DNA from: Desulfomonile tiedjei
GTDB lineage: Bacteria; Desulfobacterota; Desulfomonilia; Desulfomonilales; Desulfomonilaceae
NCBI GenBank assembly: GCA_016218715.1
Contig: JACRDG010000104.1
Span: 62,001 to 126,000, forward strand
DNA: 64,000 nucleotides
Direction of reading: 5' to 3'
Positions 1,544 to 61,145 of this stretch are shown here, in pieces. Numbering within the stretch: position 1 is the first letter of the stretch; every line of letters starts with the position of its first letter. Under the pieces are notes generated by a model that worked only from the letters and a program-made list of their open reading frames with translations, had not been told where the DNA came from and made no database searches. A program made the position numbers and the translations under genes.

Positions 1544-2389
1544 ATGTGGGAATACAGCGACAAGGTTAAGGACCATTTTTTCAATCCGAGAAACGTCGGT
1601 GCTCTCGAAGACAGTAACGCGGTCGGAGAAGTAGGTTCTCTTGCCTGTGGGGACTCTTTGAAGCTCTTTCTCAAGGTCGATCCGGATACCGATCGTATCA
1701 TTGACGCGACCTTTCAGACCTTCGGATGCGGCAGCGCGATCGCTTCCAGCAGTGCGCTGACCGAGATGCTTAAAGGTAAGACCGTCCAGGAGGCCATGGA
1801 TATAACAAATAAGGATATTGCGGACTTCCTGGGTGGCCTTCCCAAGGAAAAGATGCACTGCTCGGTTATGGGCCGAGAGGCGCTTCACGCGGCTATCGCC
1901 CACTATCGTGGACAGCCGTCCCCCGCGGAACAGCTCGAAGGTGAGCTCGTCTGCCAGTGCTTCGGCGTCACGGACCTCCAGATCAAGCAGGTGGCCACGG
2001 AGAACAAACTTACTACGGTGGAGGAGGTCACCAACTACACCAAGGCAGGGGGCGGCTGCGGACTTTGTCACGAGAAGATTGAGGAAATCCTGTTGCAAAT
2101 TCGCGGTGAACAGAAGAAGGACGAGGCGCCACCGGTTCCTGCCGCTAAACGCATGACCAATCTGCAGAAGATAGCGAAAATACAGGAAGTAATCGAGAGA
2201 GAGATACGCCCGATGTTGCAGCAGGACGGGGGGGACGTCGAACTGGTCGACGTGGAAGGGGCTCGCGTTCTGCTGGCGCTGAGGGGTATGTGCACGTCGT
2301 GTCCAAGTGCCGCGCTCACTCGGGAAGGTATCGAAGCGAAACTGAGGGAACTCGTGCTTCCGGACCTCGTCGTCGAGGAGGTAGCGTGA
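1544..2389 (+). CDS. nifU: NifU-type iron-sulfur cluster scaffold protein
   Basis: Full-length three-domain NifU (281 residues). The N-terminal IscU-like domain has the cluster ligands in [14 protein letters not shown] and KMHCSV. The central BFD-like [2Fe-2S] domain has CQCFGVTD and GGGCGLC. The C-terminal Nfu domain has CTSCPSA. It builds transient Fe-S clusters with sulfur from NifS and passes them to apo-proteins in the cytoplasm. ATG at 1544 (MWEYSDKV) matches the usual NifU start; an in-frame GTG at 1538 is less likely. The stop overlaps the ATG of nifS, so the pair is co-translated. The neighbourhood has no nif structural genes, so this is probably the housekeeping Fe-S system of an anaerobe with many Fe-S enzymes. 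Confidence 0.96.
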
Positions 2390-3579
2390 TGAACCCGGTT
2401 TACCTGGACAACAATGCCACCACTAAGGTTGCTGCGGAAGTATTCGAGGCCATGAAGCCCTTCTTTTGCGAGAGATACGGCAATCCTTCCAGCATGCATT
2501 CGTTCGGCGGGAACGTCGCCCGCGACGTCGCTGCCGCCCGAGCGGCCTTGGCCGCATTGTTGGGAGCCTCCTCTCCCCAGGAGGTGGTGTTCACGTCAGG
2601 CGGGACGGAATCTGATTCCACGGCGATTCTGAGCGCATTGGCAACCAGCCCCGAGCGACGGGAGATCGTCACCAGTCGGGTCGAGCATCCTGCAGTGCTA
2701 AATCTGTGCAGGTACCTGGCCAGGGACAAAGGATACACCGTTCGATGGTTGTCGGTGGATCGAGAAGGGCGGCTGGATATGGAAGAGGTCCAGAGTAAGA
2801 TCTCCGACCATACCGCCATCGTCTCGGTCATGTGGGCCAACAACGAGACCGGCGTGATCTTCCCCATACAGCAGATCGGGGAAATCGCCCACGAGCGCGG
2901 TGCCCTGATGCATACGGACGCGGTCCAGGCAGTGGGCAAGATCCCCCTGGACTTGAAGGCTTCGGCAATTGATTTCATTTCCCTGTCCGGGCACAAACTT
3001 CATGGACCCAAAGGGATCGGGGCCCTCTACGTGAAGCGAGGAACTCGATTCTCTCCCTTTGTGTTGGGAGGGCACCAGGAATCCAACCGGAGAGGTGGAA
3101 CGGAAAACGTTCCCGGAATCGTAGGTCTCGGGACGGCTGCTCGCCTTGCAGCGAAGAACCTGGACGAGGAGAACGACCGGGTCAGACGATTGCGCGATAA
3201 GCTCGAGCAGGGAGTCATGGCCGGAATCCCTTTTGCCCATCTGAACGGCCACAAAGAGGCGAGACTCCCCAATACGCTCAACGTGGGGTTCGAATTCGTC
3301 GAGGGGGAGGCGATCCTCATGCGGCTGGACGAAAAGGGGATATGTGCTTCATCGGGATCTGCCTGCACATCGGGGTCTCTCGAACCATCGCACGTTCTTC
3401 GGGCCATGGGGGTACCGTTCACGTCGGTGCACGGTTCGATTCGATTCTCGCTATCGCGATACACAACCGCGGAGGAAATAGACTACGTCCTGACGGAATT
3501 ACCGGGAATAATTCACTTTCTCAGGTCAGTCTCGCCGTTCGGACGAGAAAACCTCGAGGCAATATGCAGAGTCCACTGA
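2389..3579 (+). CDS. nifS: Cysteine desulfurase NifS
   Basis: A 396-residue PLP enzyme that converts L-cysteine to L-alanine and delivers persulfide sulfur to NifU. Visible marks are the N-terminal YLDNNATTK, the PLP lysine in SGHKLHGPKG and the catalytic cysteine in SSGSACTSG, which is the class I (NifS/IscS) loop. The start ATG overlaps the nifU stop as TGATG, and GAGGAGG lies just upstream inside nifU. A longer open frame begins at 2290, but it lies within nifU and the family start is at 2389. Confidence 0.96.
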   Translation: MNPVYLDNNATTKVAAEVFEAMKPFFCERYGNPSSMHSFGGNVARDVAAARAALAALLGASSPQEVVFTSGGTESDSTAILSALATSPERREIVTSRVEHPAVLNLCRYLARDKGYTVRWLSVDREGRLDMEEVQSKISDHTAIVSVMWANNETGVIFPIQQIGEIAHERGALMHTDAVQAVGKIPLDLKASAIDFISLSGHKLHGPKGIGALYVKRGTRFSPFVLGGHQESNRRGGTENVPGIVGLGTAARLAAKNLDEENDRVRRLRDKLEQGVMAGIPFAHLNGHKEARLPNTLNVGFEFVEGEAILMRLDEKGICASSGSACTSGSLEPSHVLRAMGVPFTSVHGSIRFSLSRYTTAEEIDYVLTELPGIIHFLRSVSPFGRENLEAICRVH

Positions 3580-55752: not shown

Positions 55753-55842
55753 TCACGGATAAACCCCGGCGAGCCACCTCAAGAAGAAGATGCTCCCGAT
55801 CAGAAAGAGGGCCATCACAATCCGCGAAATACACTCTCGCAT
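55753..55842 (-). CDS. Predicted 29-residue single-span membrane peptide
   Basis: ATG 55842 to TGA 55753. Basic and Cys-containing N-terminus (MRECISR), one hydrophobic span (IVMALFLIGSIFF) and a short tail (LRWLAGVYP). GGGAG lies about eight bases before the ATG. A good minus-strand promoter lies at 56175-56203, about 330 bases upstream. Such short single-span peptides often modulate membrane proteins, but no target is evident. Expression is unproven. Confidence 0.4.
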   Translation of the reverse strand: MRECISRIVMALFLIGSIFFLRWLAGVYP

Positions 55843-55988
55843 GACCTGACTCCCGAGTTCTCATTGCGTGATGACGCACCGCCGGGCGCTGCGCGTTGGC
55901 TCGTTCGCATGAGACCATACCTAACACTCAATAACGCAAGGGACAAGATCCGGTGAAGAGAGACCCGGCTCCAGGAACCAAACGCGCC

Positions 55989-56016
55989 GGTAGCGGCCCC
56001 GATTGGAGCCGCTACC
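55989..56016 (-). other. Perfect 9-bp inverted repeat in the leader of the small-peptide transcript
   Basis: GGTAGCGGC and GCCGCTACC separated by ten bases, lying between the promoter at 56175-56203 and the small frame at 55842. It would form a stable hairpin in that RNA; terminator, attenuator or structural element are all possible. Confidence 0.35.
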
Positions 56017-56082
56017 GACTGAGATGAAAAAGTGGGCCTGAAGAAAAAGCCCTATGATGGAAATGACCTCTAATCCCTGGGT

Positions 56083-56106
56083 GGGGGGGTTATGGGGGAG
56101 GGAGGG
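56083..56106 (+). other. G-quadruplex motif
   Basis: Plus strand G7-TTAT-G5-A-G3-A-G3, a canonical four-tract pattern with loops of four, one and one bases. It is the template strand for the predicted minus-strand transcript, about 60 bases after its start. Confidence 0.5.
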
Positions 56107-56174
56107 TGTCCATCCAGGTAGAGGTCGAAATCGAGGGCCATCAGCATTTGCCGAATGGCGCCTCACGGTTTGAG

Positions 56175-56203
56175 AATATAAGGGAAGGCGGCCTGAAAGT
56201 CAA
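56175..56203 (-). promoter_or_regulatory. Predicted sigma-70 promoter with AT-rich upstream region
   Basis: On the minus strand TTGACT (56203-56198), 17-base spacer, TATATT (56180-56175). Bases 56204-56280 just upstream are strikingly AT-rich compared with the window and could act as an UP element. It reads toward the small membrane peptide gene. Confidence 0.5.
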
Positions 56204-56488
56204 GAAAATACTTTAAGAAAGATATCTAATTAACTAATAACATGACATTATTTAGCGAATAGTAGGTTTTTCTTTCGTTCTGCTCATCCAGACTGATCGG
56301 GCAACTACCTAACAAAACTCCACTATTTTCGCGGGCGTCCAGGGTCCAGTCCGCGATCGGCAACCACATTTCGCGAAATCGGAGGGCCGAGGGTTCGGGA
56401 ACAGGCAATTCGCGGCCATCAGGGCGCGTTTACCGCGCCGCGCAGACCGGTTTTTCCTTGAAAACAGGGGGCCATCGGTTGAGCTTCA

Positions 56489-57778
56489 TCAGGGGGTGGC
56501 CTGACCGGCCAGGGTGAAACCTATCATGCAGAGGCTGAGCCCAACGAGCAGCGCGACCGCGATCCAGGAGATGAGATTGAGAACAGGCCCATTGGTATGG
56601 CCCTTCATGACGGTCGGGTCGTTGGTCAGGAAGATCATGAACACGAGCACCACTGGGAGCACCAGGCCGTTTGCCACCTGGGAGATGAACATGATGGGGA
56701 CGAGCGGGATGCCCGGCATGAGGATGATCAGTGCGGAAAAGACCACAATGAAGCAGTAGAGACCGTAGAACTGCGGCGCCTGGGAGAATTTCTGATCAAG
56801 GCTCGACTCCCATCCGAAGGCTTCACAGACGGTGTACGCGGTTGAAAGCGGTAGGATGGAAGCGGCGAAGACCGACGCGTTCAAGAGCCCGATCGCGAAC
56901 AACCACGTGCAATAGTCCCCCGCCAATGGCCGCAATGCCAGGGCCGCGTCCTGTGCGGTCTCGATCTTGATGCCGGCCTTGAACAGCGTGGCCGCGCAGG
57001 CCAGGATGATGAAGAACGCCACGATGTTGACGACCACCGACCCCGCGATCACATCGGTCCGGGCAGCCTTGAGGTCCTTGATCCCCAATCCTTTGTCCAC
57101 CATGGACGCCTGGAGATAGAACATCATCCAGGGTGCGATGGTGGTTCCCACCAGACCGACGAGCATCACGAGGAAACTCGTCTCAAACTTGACGGTCGGT
57201 TTGGCCACGGACGCGATCACCTCGGTCCATTCCGGCTGGACCAGAAATCCGGCAACCACGTACGCGAGATAGAACAGACAAGCCGTGAGAAACCACTTCT
57301 CAACCGACTCGTAACTCCCCTTGACCACGAGCCACAGCAGGAAGAGTATGCTCACCGGGACGGAGATGTAACGTGAAACGCCGAAAATCTCCAGTGCTGC
57401 GGCTATGCCCGCGAATTCAGCGAGACAGTTGCCGAGGTTGTTGAGGATCAACAGGATCATCGTGTAGAACGCGAGCCTGACGCCGTAGCGTTCCCGTATC
57501 AGGTCGGACAGCCCCTTGCCGGAGACTACGGCCATCCTTGCGCCCATTTCCTGAATGATTATGAGGAGAATGGTAATCGGTATCAGGGTCCAGAGCATGC
57601 TGAACCCAAAGCCGGCACCTGCGAGCGAATAGGTGGCTATACCACCCGCATCGTTGTCCACATTGGAGGTGATGATCCCTGGCCCCATGAGGACGAGGAA
57701 GGCCAGCAACGAGCGCCACCGCATCTTGAAAAAACCGATGTTTGGCTTCGCTGTTGGCTTGTCTGCTCGTTCTGTCAT
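56489..57778 (-). CDS. NRAMP-family transporter with altered metal-site residues
   Basis: 429 residues, about 11 membrane segments. TM1 reads GPGIITSNVDNDAGGIAT, aligning with canonical GPG...DPGN: the Asp is kept but Asn becomes Gly (DAGG). TM6 reads TTIAPWMMFYLQAS, aligning with the canonical MPH: the metal-binding Met becomes Ala and His becomes Trp. The TM6 Met is known to favour transition metals over Ca/Mg, so its loss points to magnesium or another hard ion. It starts 19 bases after the stop of the MgtE-N/CBS gene, in one operon. A hairpin lies at 56423-56439 downstream. Confidence 0.85.
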   Translation of the reverse strand: MTERADKPTAKPNIGFFKMRWRSLLAFLVLMGPGIITSNVDNDAGGIATYSLAGAGFGFSMLWTLIPITILLIIIQEMGARMAVVSGKGLSDLIRERYGVRLAFYTMILLILNNLGNCLAEFAGIAAALEIFGVSRYISVPVSILFLLWLVVKGSYESVEKWFLTACLFYLAYVVAGFLVQPEWTEVIASVAKPTVKFETSFLVMLVGLVGTTIAPWMMFYLQASMVDKGLGIKDLKAARTDVIAGSVVVNIVAFFIILACAATLFKAGIKIETAQDAALALRPLAGDYCTWLFAIGLLNASVFAASILPLSTAYTVCEAFGWESSLDQKFSQAPQFYGLYCFIVVFSALIILMPGIPLVPIMFISQVANGLVLPVVLVFMIFLTNDPTVMKGHTNGPVLNLISWIAVALLVGLSLCMIGFTLAGQATP

Positions 57779-57797
57779 GTACGGATGCTCCGCTGTG

Positions 57798-59087
57798 CTA
57801 TCTTCCCAGGTGGGGTGCGAGTATTTCCATGAGGGCCTTGAACCTTACCACCCCGTGTATGCGATTGTCTTCATCCAGGACGGGGATCGCACGAAATCCG
57901 TACTTGGCAAAGAGGTCGGCCACGTGGCTCGCGTCGTCATCAAGTTGTGTACTGATGACGCGCGTGGTCATAATTCTTTCCAGCGGGGTGAATATCTCAT
58001 GCGAGAGGAGTTCTCGCAGGTTTATTACGCCGAGGAGCCGTGTCTGTTCATCCACCACATAGATGTAGTAAATCACGTCGATTTCGTCCGCATTCTGCTT
58101 GATGTACGCCAGCGCGTCCACAATCGTCTCATCCGGCCGTAACGCGACGAATTCGGTGGTCATGAGGCCGCCTGCCTTGTCCTCTTCGTGGGCCAGCAGC
58201 CCTTTGACCTCTTCCTCGTAGTCCGGGTCCAGTTCCTTGAAAATTCCTGATGCCGTCTCTGCCGGAAGGTCTGCGATGAGGTCAGCGGCTTCGTCAGGGG
58301 ACATCTCTTCGATGATATCCGCGGCCTTTTCCGGTTCCAGGCCTCTCATGATGGAAACCTGAACCTTTGGGTCCATTTCTTCTAGTGCGTCGGCCAGGAC
58401 CTCACTCTTGAGAGACTCCACGACCGCGGCTCGCTCATTGACATCCATATCTTCGATGATGTCCGCGAGGTCAGCGGGGTGCAACTCGGACATTTTGCTC
58501 TGAGGTATCTGCAGCCGGAGACGGTCCGGATCGGCCAGCGGCTGTGCATAGTTCCAGGCAATCAGCCTTTCCTTGAGCGTGTAATCGAAGAACCACTCGC
58601 AGAAACGAACGACCGGACCCTCGAATCCGAGCCGCCTCAACAGCCCGCGGAAACCGACGTCCAGTTGAACCAGTTTAAGCTTGCCGTCGGAGCGGACAAA
58701 GTGAAGATCGTTGACTCGTTCGACCTTCGCTCCGTTGATGTCAACAATCTGCTTGTCCAGGAGGAAGTCCTTGAGGAGAATGTGGGAAGAAGGACGCGAC
58801 TCCCGGGCCGGAACGTGGGTCGATGCGGTGTCCGGATTGAGAACGATCTCGGAAGGGAGGATCGATTGGACTTGGCTCCACGCCACACACCAGCGTTCCT
58901 TGCTCCACCGATGCCGGTACACGAGGTTCACCACCTCAGGAAGGGGCAGATCCAGATCCACCATCAGATCCACGACCTTTCCCAACACCTGCCGCGAAGA
59001 AGCACGCACTTTCAATCCAAGGAGTGCGCTAAAGGAATGAAACCCATGACGCGGGTGTGCCACCGATATCCGGTCTGAAACCGCCAT
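57798..59087 (-). CDS. Soluble PRC-barrel / MgtE-N / tandem-CBS protein
   Basis: 429 residues without membrane segments. Residues ~1-150 contain two PRC-barrel-like units (LLGLKVRASSRQVLGKVVDL; IVDINGAKVERVNDL). Residues ~200-295 are an MgtE N domain (SELHPADLADIIEDMDVNERAAVV, GLEPEKAADIIEEMSPDEAADLI). Residues ~305-429 are paired CBS domains (GGLMTTEFVALRPDETIVDAL; RIMTTRVISTQLDDDASHVADLF). In MgtE, N plus CBS domains sense intracellular Mg and gate the channel; here the channel part is missing and the next gene is an NRAMP-like transporter. ATG 59087 has GAGG five bases upstream. Confidence 0.88.
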   Translation of the reverse strand: MAVSDRISVAHPRHGFHSFSALLGLKVRASSRQVLGKVVDLMVDLDLPLPEVVNLVYRHRWSKERWCVAWSQVQSILPSEIVLNPDTASTHVPARESRPSSHILLKDFLLDKQIVDINGAKVERVNDLHFVRSDGKLKLVQLDVGFRGLLRRLGFEGPVVRFCEWFFDYTLKERLIAWNYAQPLADPDRLRLQIPQSKMSELHPADLADIIEDMDVNERAAVVESLKSEVLADALEEMDPKVQVSIMRGLEPEKAADIIEEMSPDEAADLIADLPAETASGIFKELDPDYEEEVKGLLAHEEDKAGGLMTTEFVALRPDETIVDALAYIKQNADEIDVIYYIYVVDEQTRLLGVINLRELLSHEIFTPLERIMTTRVISTQLDDDASHVADLFAKYGFRAIPVLDEDNRIHGVVRFKALMEILAPHLGR

Positions 59088-59226
59088 CGCCGCCTCGATC
59101 CATTCTGCCTGAGAATCTGCGGATTATAACGCCAAGACCGCCTCATGGAAAGGACAAGTTCGCCGCAGCAACCAATGCTCACGAGAATATAATGATCCGC
59201 GATGATCGTGGACAACAGGAGAGATC

Positions 59227-59337
59227 ATGTGTGAATTGACCGACTCTGTGCTCTGTCCAGCCGCTTACGCCACGCACCGTTCGGTCAACCGCGTTATCGC
59301 GCGAGGTATGATTTCGGTTGAGCCTGGAAGAATTTGA
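59227..59337 (+). CDS. Possible 36-residue small protein
   Basis: ATG 59227 with AGGAG at good spacing, and a perfect TATAAT at 59188-59193 upstream (no clear -35). The peptide begins MCELTDSVLCPAAYATHR and has two Cys; no known domain. It lies between divergent genes in a 297-base gap. Low confidence. Confidence 0.2.
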   Translation: MCELTDSVLCPAAYATHRSVNRVIARGMISVEPGRI

Positions 59338-59345
59338 GGCATAAT
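59318..59345 (+). promoter_or_regulatory. Predicted sigma-70 promoter of the ACT-domain gene
   Basis: TTGAGC (59318-59323), 16-base spacer, CATAAT (59340-59345), 39 bases before the ATG. Confidence 0.4.
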
Positions 59346-59384
59346 AGAGAACTGTCCCCGAAGAGAATCCTCAGGAGATAGGCG

Positions 59385-59879
59385 ATGACCATCAGGAAAC
59401 AACTCGAGGTAATGCTCGCGGACGCTCCCGGCGAACTGGCCAAGCTGACCGCAGCGCTCAACGACGAGCACGTCAACATCGAGGCGATGAGCATCCAGGA
59501 CGCCAACGAGTACCTGCAAGCGCTCTACGACGTGCGCAGCCAAACCGGCCGCCGCGTCGCCCCACTGGAATACTACGAAGCGATCCTGAAGGAATCGGCC
59601 AAGTATTCCATGATCCGTCTGATAACCGACAACCCGACCAAAGCAGTCGAGGCGCTCACCAAGGTGGGATACCAGGTGAAGGTCCATGACGTGCTTGGGG
59701 TAATCCTGGACAACCGGCCGGGCCAGCTCAACCGGGTATCCAAAATGCTTGGCGACGCGGGGATCAACATCAGCTACACCTACGGCTCGGGGTTTGCTGA
59801 TAGTGAAGCGGCCTTGTTCATTTTCCGAGTTTCGGATGTGGAGAAGGCCCTTGCCATGTTCCCAAATGGAAGGCTTTGA
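59385..59879 (+). CDS. Tandem ACT-domain protein
   Basis: 164 residues consisting of two ACT domains only: LEVMLADAPGELAKLTAALNDEHVNIEAM and VLGVILDNRPGQLNRVSKMLGDAGINISY. ACT pairs bind amino acids and control metabolism or transport. AGGAG lies before the ATG. The gene overlaps the ClpS-like gene by 14 bases. Ligand unknown. Confidence 0.9.
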   Translation: MTIRKQLEVMLADAPGELAKLTAALNDEHVNIEAMSIQDANEYLQALYDVRSQTGRRVAPLEYYEAILKESAKYSMIRLITDNPTKAVEALTKVGYQVKVHDVLGVILDNRPGQLNRVSKMLGDAGINISYTYGSGFADSEAALFIFRVSDVEKALAMFPNGRL

Positions 59880-60195
59880 GTGCTATACAACCAGGCGCGT
59901 TTCTCCCATTCGCTTGGGCGGCGAGCCCGATGACGAGCGTTCGCGGGATACCCGCGACCTCTACGAAGTGCGCATCATAGACAACGATCACAATACGTAC
60001 CAGGAGGTCATCGAGATCTCGATGATCGCCCTGGGGGTCAGTGAAGAAGAAGCCTTCGCGATCGCGTGGGAGGTGGACCATAGCGGGAGCTGCGCAGTGG
60101 CTCGTGCCCCTCGCGACACCGCAGAGGCTGTTGCGGACGTGATCAGGATGATCGGGATTGAGGTTCAGGTGAATCGGATGGGGGGCGAGGCGTGA
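59866..60195 (+). CDS. clpS: ClpS-like Clp protease adaptor
   Basis: 109 residues; the core YEVRIIDNDHNTYQEVIEISMIALGVS and AFAIAWEVDHSGSCAVARA follow ClpS, in which an NDxxT loop and His line the N-degron pocket. It would pass proteins with destabilising N-termini to a ClpAP-type protease. The N-terminal ~35 residues are basic and extended. ATG 59866 lies inside the end of the ACT gene, so coupling is likely; no ClpA lies in the window. Confidence 0.82.
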   Translation: MEGFECYTTRRVSPIRLGGEPDDERSRDTRDLYEVRIIDNDHNTYQEVIEISMIALGVSEEEAFAIAWEVDHSGSCAVARAPRDTAEAVADVIRMIGIEVQVNRMGGEA

Positions 60196-60274
60196 GTTGC
60201 GGTCCCCTCCCCGATCAGCGTCCGATAAGATATATTATGTTAACTCAAACCGGCCGCCGCCCTTTGCCTTGCAA

Positions 60275-60303
60275 TTGACATCCGAGGCCGTCGCTTCTAT
60301 CAT
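60275..60303 (+). promoter_or_regulatory. Strong promoter giving a nearly leaderless glycosyltransferase transcript
   Basis: TTGACA (60275-60280), 17-base spacer, TATCAT (60298-60303). The ATG is at 60312, eight bases after the -10, so the transcript should start at or within a few bases of the start codon. Confidence 0.55.
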
Positions 60304-60311
60304 CTCCGCCC

Positions 60312-61145
60312 ATGAACGAGCCGCCATCACACCACACTCCTCCTCTCCTCAGTTTCGCGGTAATCACGAAGAATGAGGCGGACCGCGTGGGACGACTCCT
60401 CGCGAGCGCCGAGATCGCGGACGAGGTTGTTGTGGTCGATTCGGGGAGCACCGACGATACTGTGGAGATTTGCCGGTCGTGGGGTGCGCGAGTCCTCGAT
60501 CGTGACTGGACAGGGTACGTGGCTCAGAAACAGTTCGCGATGGAAATGACCACTGGTGAGTGGATCCTGAACCTCGACGCTGACGAGGCGTTGTCCGAGG
60601 AATCGCGTCTCGAGATCCTCCAGGCCATTCAGAACGCAGCCGCGGACGTGAACGGATTCGCCATGCCGCGACTTAGCCGATACCTGAACCGCTGGATACG
60701 ACATGGTGGCTGGTACCCTGACCGAAAGGTGCGTCTCGTGCGCCAAGGTTGTGCGCGCTGGGTCGGCGATGGGCTGCACGAACGGATCGAGGTCTTCGGG
60801 CGGGTCGGGGAACTGAAACACCCCCTACTGCATTATGTCTATCGAGATGTTTCCGACCAAGTGAGAACCATCAACCGGTTCTCCAGCGTAACTGCGGATC
60901 AACGCAGATCTCCCGCTTCCGGATGGTACGTCCTGTGGGGTGTGGTACATGCGCTCGGCAAATTCCTCGAGTGCGCGATATGGAAATTGGGCGTTCTCGA
61001 TGGGATAGCCGGCCTGGTAATCGCTATGAACAGCGCCTTTTACGTGTTCCTGAAGCATGCCAAAGCCTGGGAAAAAGGACTCGACACTCGTTCCGAGCAG
61101 CCATCCGCCTCGGAGCCGCGCCCTCCCAAGACAGACAGCAGGTGA
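60312..61145 (+). CDS. Family 2 glycosyltransferase, WaaE/KdtX-like
   Basis: 277 residues. LLSFAVITKNEADRVGRLLAS, VVVDSGSTDDTVEI and LNLDADEALS mark a GT2 fold with an additional C-terminal segment (ECAIWKLGVLDGIAGLVIAMNSAFYVFLKHAKAW) typical of lipopolysaccharide-core glucosyltransferases. It acts in the cytoplasm on core sugar chains. Followed immediately by a second glycosyltransferase. Confidence 0.88.
   Translation: MNEPPSHHTPPLLSFAVITKNEADRVGRLLASAEIADEVVVVDSGSTDDTVEICRSWGARVLDRDWTGYVAQKQFAMEMTTGEWILNLDADEALSEESRLEILQAIQNAAADVNGFAMPRLSRYLNRWIRHGGWYPDRKVRLVRQGCARWVGDGLHERIEVFGRVGELKHPLLHYVYRDVSDQVRTINRFSSVTADQRRSPASGWYVLWGVVHALGKFLECAIWKLGVLDGIAGLVIAMNSAFYVFLKHAKAWEKGLDTRSEQPSASEPRPPKTDSR

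Follow-up and report, generated by a model that had tools for sequence, protein, structure and literature searches.

Organization of the gene pair

The locus raises the question of which ion is carried by an NRAMP-type transporter whose ion-binding site departs from the classical one, and what is contributed by a soluble MgtE-like protein encoded directly in front of it. In the window, by which we mean the whole 64,000-nucleotide stretch of DNA analyzed, both genes are encoded by the minus strand, and each consists of 429 codons. The partner gene (57798-59087) is transcribed first and is followed by the transporter gene (56489-57778). The 19 nt separating the stop codon of the partner gene from the start codon of the transporter gene (57779-57797, minus strand) are consistent with both genes being read from one transcript. 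A promoter-like site, TTTCCA-17-TATAAT, is found by consensus match only at 59123-59151 on the same strand, about 36 nt before the start codon of the partner gene. The first-pass annotation had given the coordinates, the strand and the gene order correctly, with the partner gene upstream in the same operon. A scan of the region 55800-60400 for the M-box or any other known RNA yielded nothing except one sub-threshold chance match. PADLOC returned no match for the partner, and a link to anti-phage defence is unsupported.

Identity of the transporter

The TM1 segment of the transporter, NVDNDAGGIATYS, includes the motif DNDAGG, and TM6 reads GTTIAPWMMF. Canonical Mn/Fe transporters of the MntH/NRAMP type are recognized by DPGN in TM1 and MPH in TM6; at these places the window transporter carries DAGG and APW, the ligand Asn being replaced by Gly and the ligand Met by Ala. 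The altered site noticed in the first-pass annotation (DAGG in TM1 and TIAPW in TM6) was thereby confirmed. The clade of NRAMP-related Mg2+ transporters (NRMTs) is defined by DxxG and TxxA/T in place of DxxN and A/CxxM (PMC8806188). The window transporter fits the signature DxxG-TxxA with D43-A-G-G46 in TM1 and T212-T-I-A215, followed by P216 and W217, in TM6. It matches the Pfam Nramp family (PF01566) with 5e-94. Among solved structures, EleNRMT (PDB 7qia) scores 384 bits against it and the next solved NRAMP 79 bits; the identity to EleNRMT is 45% over the whole protein. Judged by its sequence, the window transporter is an NRMT. The site is also largely constant among 71 relatives, of which 66 have DAGG and 64 have TTIAPW.

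The altered ion site is already known biology, because NRMTs were discovered in 2014 (PMC4072509) and were structurally characterized in 2022 (PMC8806188). The signature and the clade are common to the window member and to the known NrmT/NRMT proteins Ca_c0685 (PMC4072509) and EleNRMT (PDB 7qia, 7qic, 7qji and 7qjj; PMC8806188). No essential sequence difference from these proteins was found; the window member is set apart by an operon without an M-box and by its host, a Desulfomonile-like bacterium.

The same genome encodes a second NRAMP, which is canonical (MDPGN...MPH), as well as CorA. The MgtE channel domain PF01769 was not found anywhere in the genome, and MgtE_N occurs only in the window partner. 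P-type ATPases are present, none of which reaches the cut-off for MgtA. The canonical NRAMP is encoded by an ORF of 629 codons (L001, contig C117, 811-2700, minus strand), which is much longer than the usual MntH.

Domain architecture of the partner

Pfam assigns MgtE_N (2e-27), CBS (7e-22, in two stretches) and PRC (7e-06, in two stretches) to the partner, and no match to the channel domain PF01769 was obtained in this protein. Each half of its N-terminus gives a weak match to the PRC profile. The architecture is PRC1-PRC2-MgtE_N-CBS-CBS, so that the soluble, channel-free protein with PRC, MgtE_N and CBS domains described in the first-pass annotation was recovered and refined to one with two tandem PRC barrels. 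The model of the full protein, built with AF2 on 62 orthologues, has a pLDDT of 88.6. The tandem PRC barrels occupy residues 1-195 (58503-59087, minus strand), as delimited by the AF2 model of this region (pLDDT 89.4, pTM 0.83), the fold match and the conservation. Residues 15-195 are closest in fold to CdpB, an archaeal protein with tandem PRC barrels (8qzo_F, Z 15.6, rmsd 2.7, 137 aligned residues); this likeness to the CdpB1/CdpB2 proteins (PDB 8qzo) is one of fold only and implies no common function. The conservation of the partner family peaks at residues 108-155 in PRC2, where 7 of the 16 invariant residues are located.

The MgtE-like sensor region spans residues 202-427 (57807-58484, minus strand), with MgtE_N at 202-303 and the CBS pair at about 304-423. 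Residues 187-423 match the cytosolic domain of MgtE, the ATP complex 5x9g (Z 22.8) being tied with the Mg2+-bound form 2yvy (Z 22.6). With the MgtE channel of T. thermophilus (PDB 2yvx, 2zy9, 5x9h) the partner shares MgtE_N and the CBS pair, the fold (Z ~22), the acidic residues of Mg6 and Mg7 and some of the ATP site. In contrast to MgtE, it possesses neither plug helix nor channel domain, is preceded by the two PRC barrels and, in the window member, has eroded Mg4 and Mg5 pairs. The chain stops where the plug helix of MgtE would begin, and the same holds for all partners examined.

Conservation of the Mg2+ and ATP sites

In T. thermophilus MgtE, Mg4 is bound by D91/D247, Mg5 by D226/D250, Mg6 by D95 and Mg7 by E59, and Mg2 and Mg3 are located in the plug helix (PMC5882242). 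These positions were compared between 53 partners and 20 complete MgtE sequences from the phylum of the window, and in a wider set of partners (n=62). The Mg6 Asp, Asp269 in the window partner, is invariant (53/53 and 62/62), and the Mg7 position is acidic in 52/53 and 48/62 partners. Both Mg4 positions are acidic in 21/53 partners versus 20/20 MgtE proteins (37/62 in the wider set), and the Mg5 pair is found in 4/53 partners versus 11/20 MgtE proteins (3/62 in the wider set). The Mg2 and Mg3 ligands are absent from all partners, which have no plug helix. The window partner has acids at MgtE positions 59, 91, 95 and 250. Position 226 is Gly and position 247 is Ala, so that both-acidic pairs are lacking for Mg4 (D91/A) and Mg5 (G/E). 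In the alignments, partners with Ser at position 91 have Asn or Ser at 247, and those with Asp at 91 mostly have Asp at 247 too. A Syntrophaceae-like group appears to have lost the Mg4 pair as a unit.

ATP is contacted in MgtE by Tyr170, Arg187, Phe227 and Asp188 (PMC5529423). The first three are present in the window partner, and Asp188 is replaced by Glu. Across the partners, the positions of Tyr170 and Arg187 are more uniform than several of the Mg2+ pairs, and Phe227 is often Leu. The partly preserved module is plausibly still a sensor of Mg2+ and ATP. Since its sites are kept only in part and the plug helix is gone, the partner, to go by these alignments, must be something other than an intact MgtE sensor, with an output route different from that of MgtE.

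Pairing of the two genes across genomes

Among 247 Desulfobacterota genomes, 55 carry a full-length partner, 56 an NRMT-like gene and 54 both (Fisher p=6e-51, a value which overstates the evidence, as the genomes are not phylogenetically independent). The first-pass annotation had named a lack of pairing in other genomes as an outcome that would speak against its reading; the 54 co-occurrences, together with an adjoining partner at 75 of 75 testable loci, clearly show the opposite. The latter figure comes from a scan with patterns around DNDA, of which the best 80 loci were kept and which speaks for the DNDA-type clade only; the 75 loci with room for a neighbour belong to about a dozen phyla, and the remaining 5 lie at contig ends. 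The pairing is thus nearly universal within one branch of the NRMT family. In the 54 genomes with the pair, the partner gene comes first in 36 and the transporter gene in 2, the genes are convergent in 8, and in 8 they lie on different contigs. In at least two of the latter (G097 and G224), both genes are well inside their separate contigs. Because convergent and different-contig arrangements also occur, the link between partner and transporter outlives the operon structure. The distances of partners and transporters correlate (Mantel r=0.84, 71 pairs). Homologues on plasmids of Arthrobacter, Leifsonia, Mycolicibacterium, Citrobacter and Alicyclobacillus likewise have a CBS partner beside DAG[GA]-TxxAPW transporters, the latter being 31-36% identical to the window transporter. 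Only two NRMT-like genes in the 247 genomes, those of G005 and G119, are without a partner, and their sites (DDDP...SPY) are those of another clade. Long open frames resembling natural fusions of partner and transporter were rejected, being two separate ORFs in G199 and G146 and convergent genes in G226.

Genomic indications of the transported ion

An M-box Mg2+ riboswitch precedes the partner gene in 8 of the 48 loci scanned (L158, L166, L168, L177, L178, L180, L185 and L187), and the transporters of these relatives are 53-57% identical to that of the window. Versions with an M-box are carried, among others, by relatives of Geobacter. The MgtE channel is found in 4/54 genomes with the pair versus 143/193 of the others (p=1.5e-19). 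Eight families hold both states; in a tally made by hand, in which genomes with neither the NRMT pair nor MgtE were left out of the count, none of their 15 pair-bearing genomes has MgtE above the cut-off, and 26 pair-less sisters have it. This suggests that the pair replaces MgtE, repeatedly within several families. Mg2+ as the probable ion, put forward in the first-pass annotation, is supported by this genomic context.

Earlier reports on the pair

The first-pass annotation had described the arrangement as not known to be characterized. This did not hold: the transporter class is NrmT/NRMT (PMC4072509, PMC8806188), and in Shin et al. 2014 an MgtE-like gene neighbouring nrmT is reported and feedback regulation suggested (PMC4072509, Fig S5; ACP2976/ACP2977). 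As in the window, the gene for the MgtE cytosolic domain is placed directly upstream of the NRMT gene in that mgtE-N-like/nrmT pair. That paper describes homology to the N-terminal cytoplasmic domain of MgtE, with no mention of PRC barrels in the available text, and names the role of the neighbour as an open question (PMC4072509). Compared with it, the tandem PRC barrels, the loss of the plug helix and the replacement of MgtE are new. NrmT of C. acetobutylicum (PMC4072509) and EleNRMT (PMC8806188) transport Mg2+ without the partner. NrmT of A. capsulatum is reported to have behaved mainly as an Mn2+ importer, fully rescuing an Mn2+ defect and an Mg2+ defect only at low millimolar Mg2+, and its co-expression with the MgtE-like neighbour brought no benefit (PMC4072509). 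Feedback may operate all the same, since a negative regulator could escape notice in an assay of growth rescue. In the literature searched we found no later test of the neighbour's role, and no paper on PRC barrels with MgtE or on NRAMP with the MgtE N domain; the sole later match was a paper on Mg2+ tolerance of S. aureus (PMC5122736).

Proposed function and alternatives

We propose that the two genes form an Mg2+ uptake system consisting of an NRMT importer and a dedicated cytosolic regulatory subunit, a reading that we regard as probable with considerable room for doubt. The observations on which it is based are the membership of the transporter by sequence, the near-universal pairing, the riboswitch context in relatives, the replacement of MgtE, the MgtE-like fold and the partial conservation of the sites. 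Counted against it are the co-expression result in A. capsulatum, the partner-free Mg2+ transport by C. acetobutylicum NrmT and EleNRMT, the missing M-box in the window, the eroded Mg4 and Mg5 pairs and the absent plug helix. By homology to other NRMTs, the transporter would move Mg2+ into the cell by means of the NRAMP fold, from which the transition-metal-selective Asn and Met have been lost. The MgtE_N/CBS module of the partner would read internal Mg2+ and probably also ATP. The tandem PRC barrels would replace the plug helix, which couples this module to the pore in MgtE; most likely, they would attach the partner to the transporter or the membrane and relay the signal, and the transporter would be subject to feedback inhibition at high Mg2+. 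The first-pass annotation had likewise suggested gating by a separate cytosolic sensor, a task that the partner may perform. The more specific version, a LeuT-fold secondary transporter feedback-gated through PRC barrels by a detachable MgtE sensor module without plug helix and pore, is tentative, and we give it slightly less than an even chance. If true, a channel and a carrier, which are unrelated in fold, are under the control of one and the same Mg2+-sensing module. The role of the partner can be put to a direct test on the basis of the near-absolute pairing, the mapped residues and the replacement of MgtE.

The partner could be a sensor of the nucleotide ATP rather than of Mg2+, or could serve the assembly or stability of the transporter, with the MgtE fold put to a new use. 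The uniform Tyr170 and Arg187 positions, the MgtE-ATP complex as top structural match, even if tied with the Mg2+-bound form, the conservation maximum in PRC2 and the missing plug helix would all fit such a role, which we nevertheless hold to be unlikely, given the invariant Mg6 Asp, the mostly acidic Mg7 position, the frequent Leu in place of the adenine-stacking Phe227 and the M-box operons, which tie the partner gene to Mg2+ levels. We give marginally less weight still to the possibility that the ion carried by the pair in the window lineage, and sensed by the partner, is Mn2+ or some other divalent cation. The A. capsulatum protein, described with an MgtE-like neighbour and a rescue that was weak for the Mg2+ mutant compared with the Mn2+-transport mutant (PMC4072509), points in this direction, as do the window operon without an M-box and the eroded Mg4 and Mg5 sites of its partner. 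Against it stand the separate canonical NRAMP of the same genome, the replacement of an Mg2+ channel by the pair in its phylum and the M-boxes in front of relatives with 53-57% identical transporters. That the two genes are mere neighbours with no functional link is strongly disfavoured and would be very surprising; the one negative co-expression experiment (PMC4072509) is opposed by the co-occurrence in 54 genomes with its convergent and unlinked arrangements, by the pairing at all testable loci among the best 80 across phyla and by the plasmid-borne pairs of distant relatives.

Divergent members and variants

The distant pair on the conjugative plasmid pPSV of Citrobacter freundii (L199, 3383-6095) adjoins genes for a heavy-metal P-type ATPase, a regulator of the ArsR/SmtB type and a Tn3 transposase. 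At L067 (G005), L116 (G119) and L200 (a Mycolicibacterium plasmid; 2006-3250), NRAMP-like proteins are encoded that are neither canonical nor NRMT, their TM1 having DDDP and their TM6 TPY or SPY. A full-length partner gene is missing from G005 and G119, and the DDDP protein of Mycolicibacterium is not the transporter that adjoins the partner. Partners from convergent arrangements (L034, L071, L072, L073, L107 and similar) carry a polybasic C-terminal tail, for example LLLPPASRRKRRKM, and, unlike the clade of the window, keep D91/D247/D250. The tail possibly reflects a different contact with the membrane or the transporter; basic tails also occur at some loci in which the partner gene comes first.
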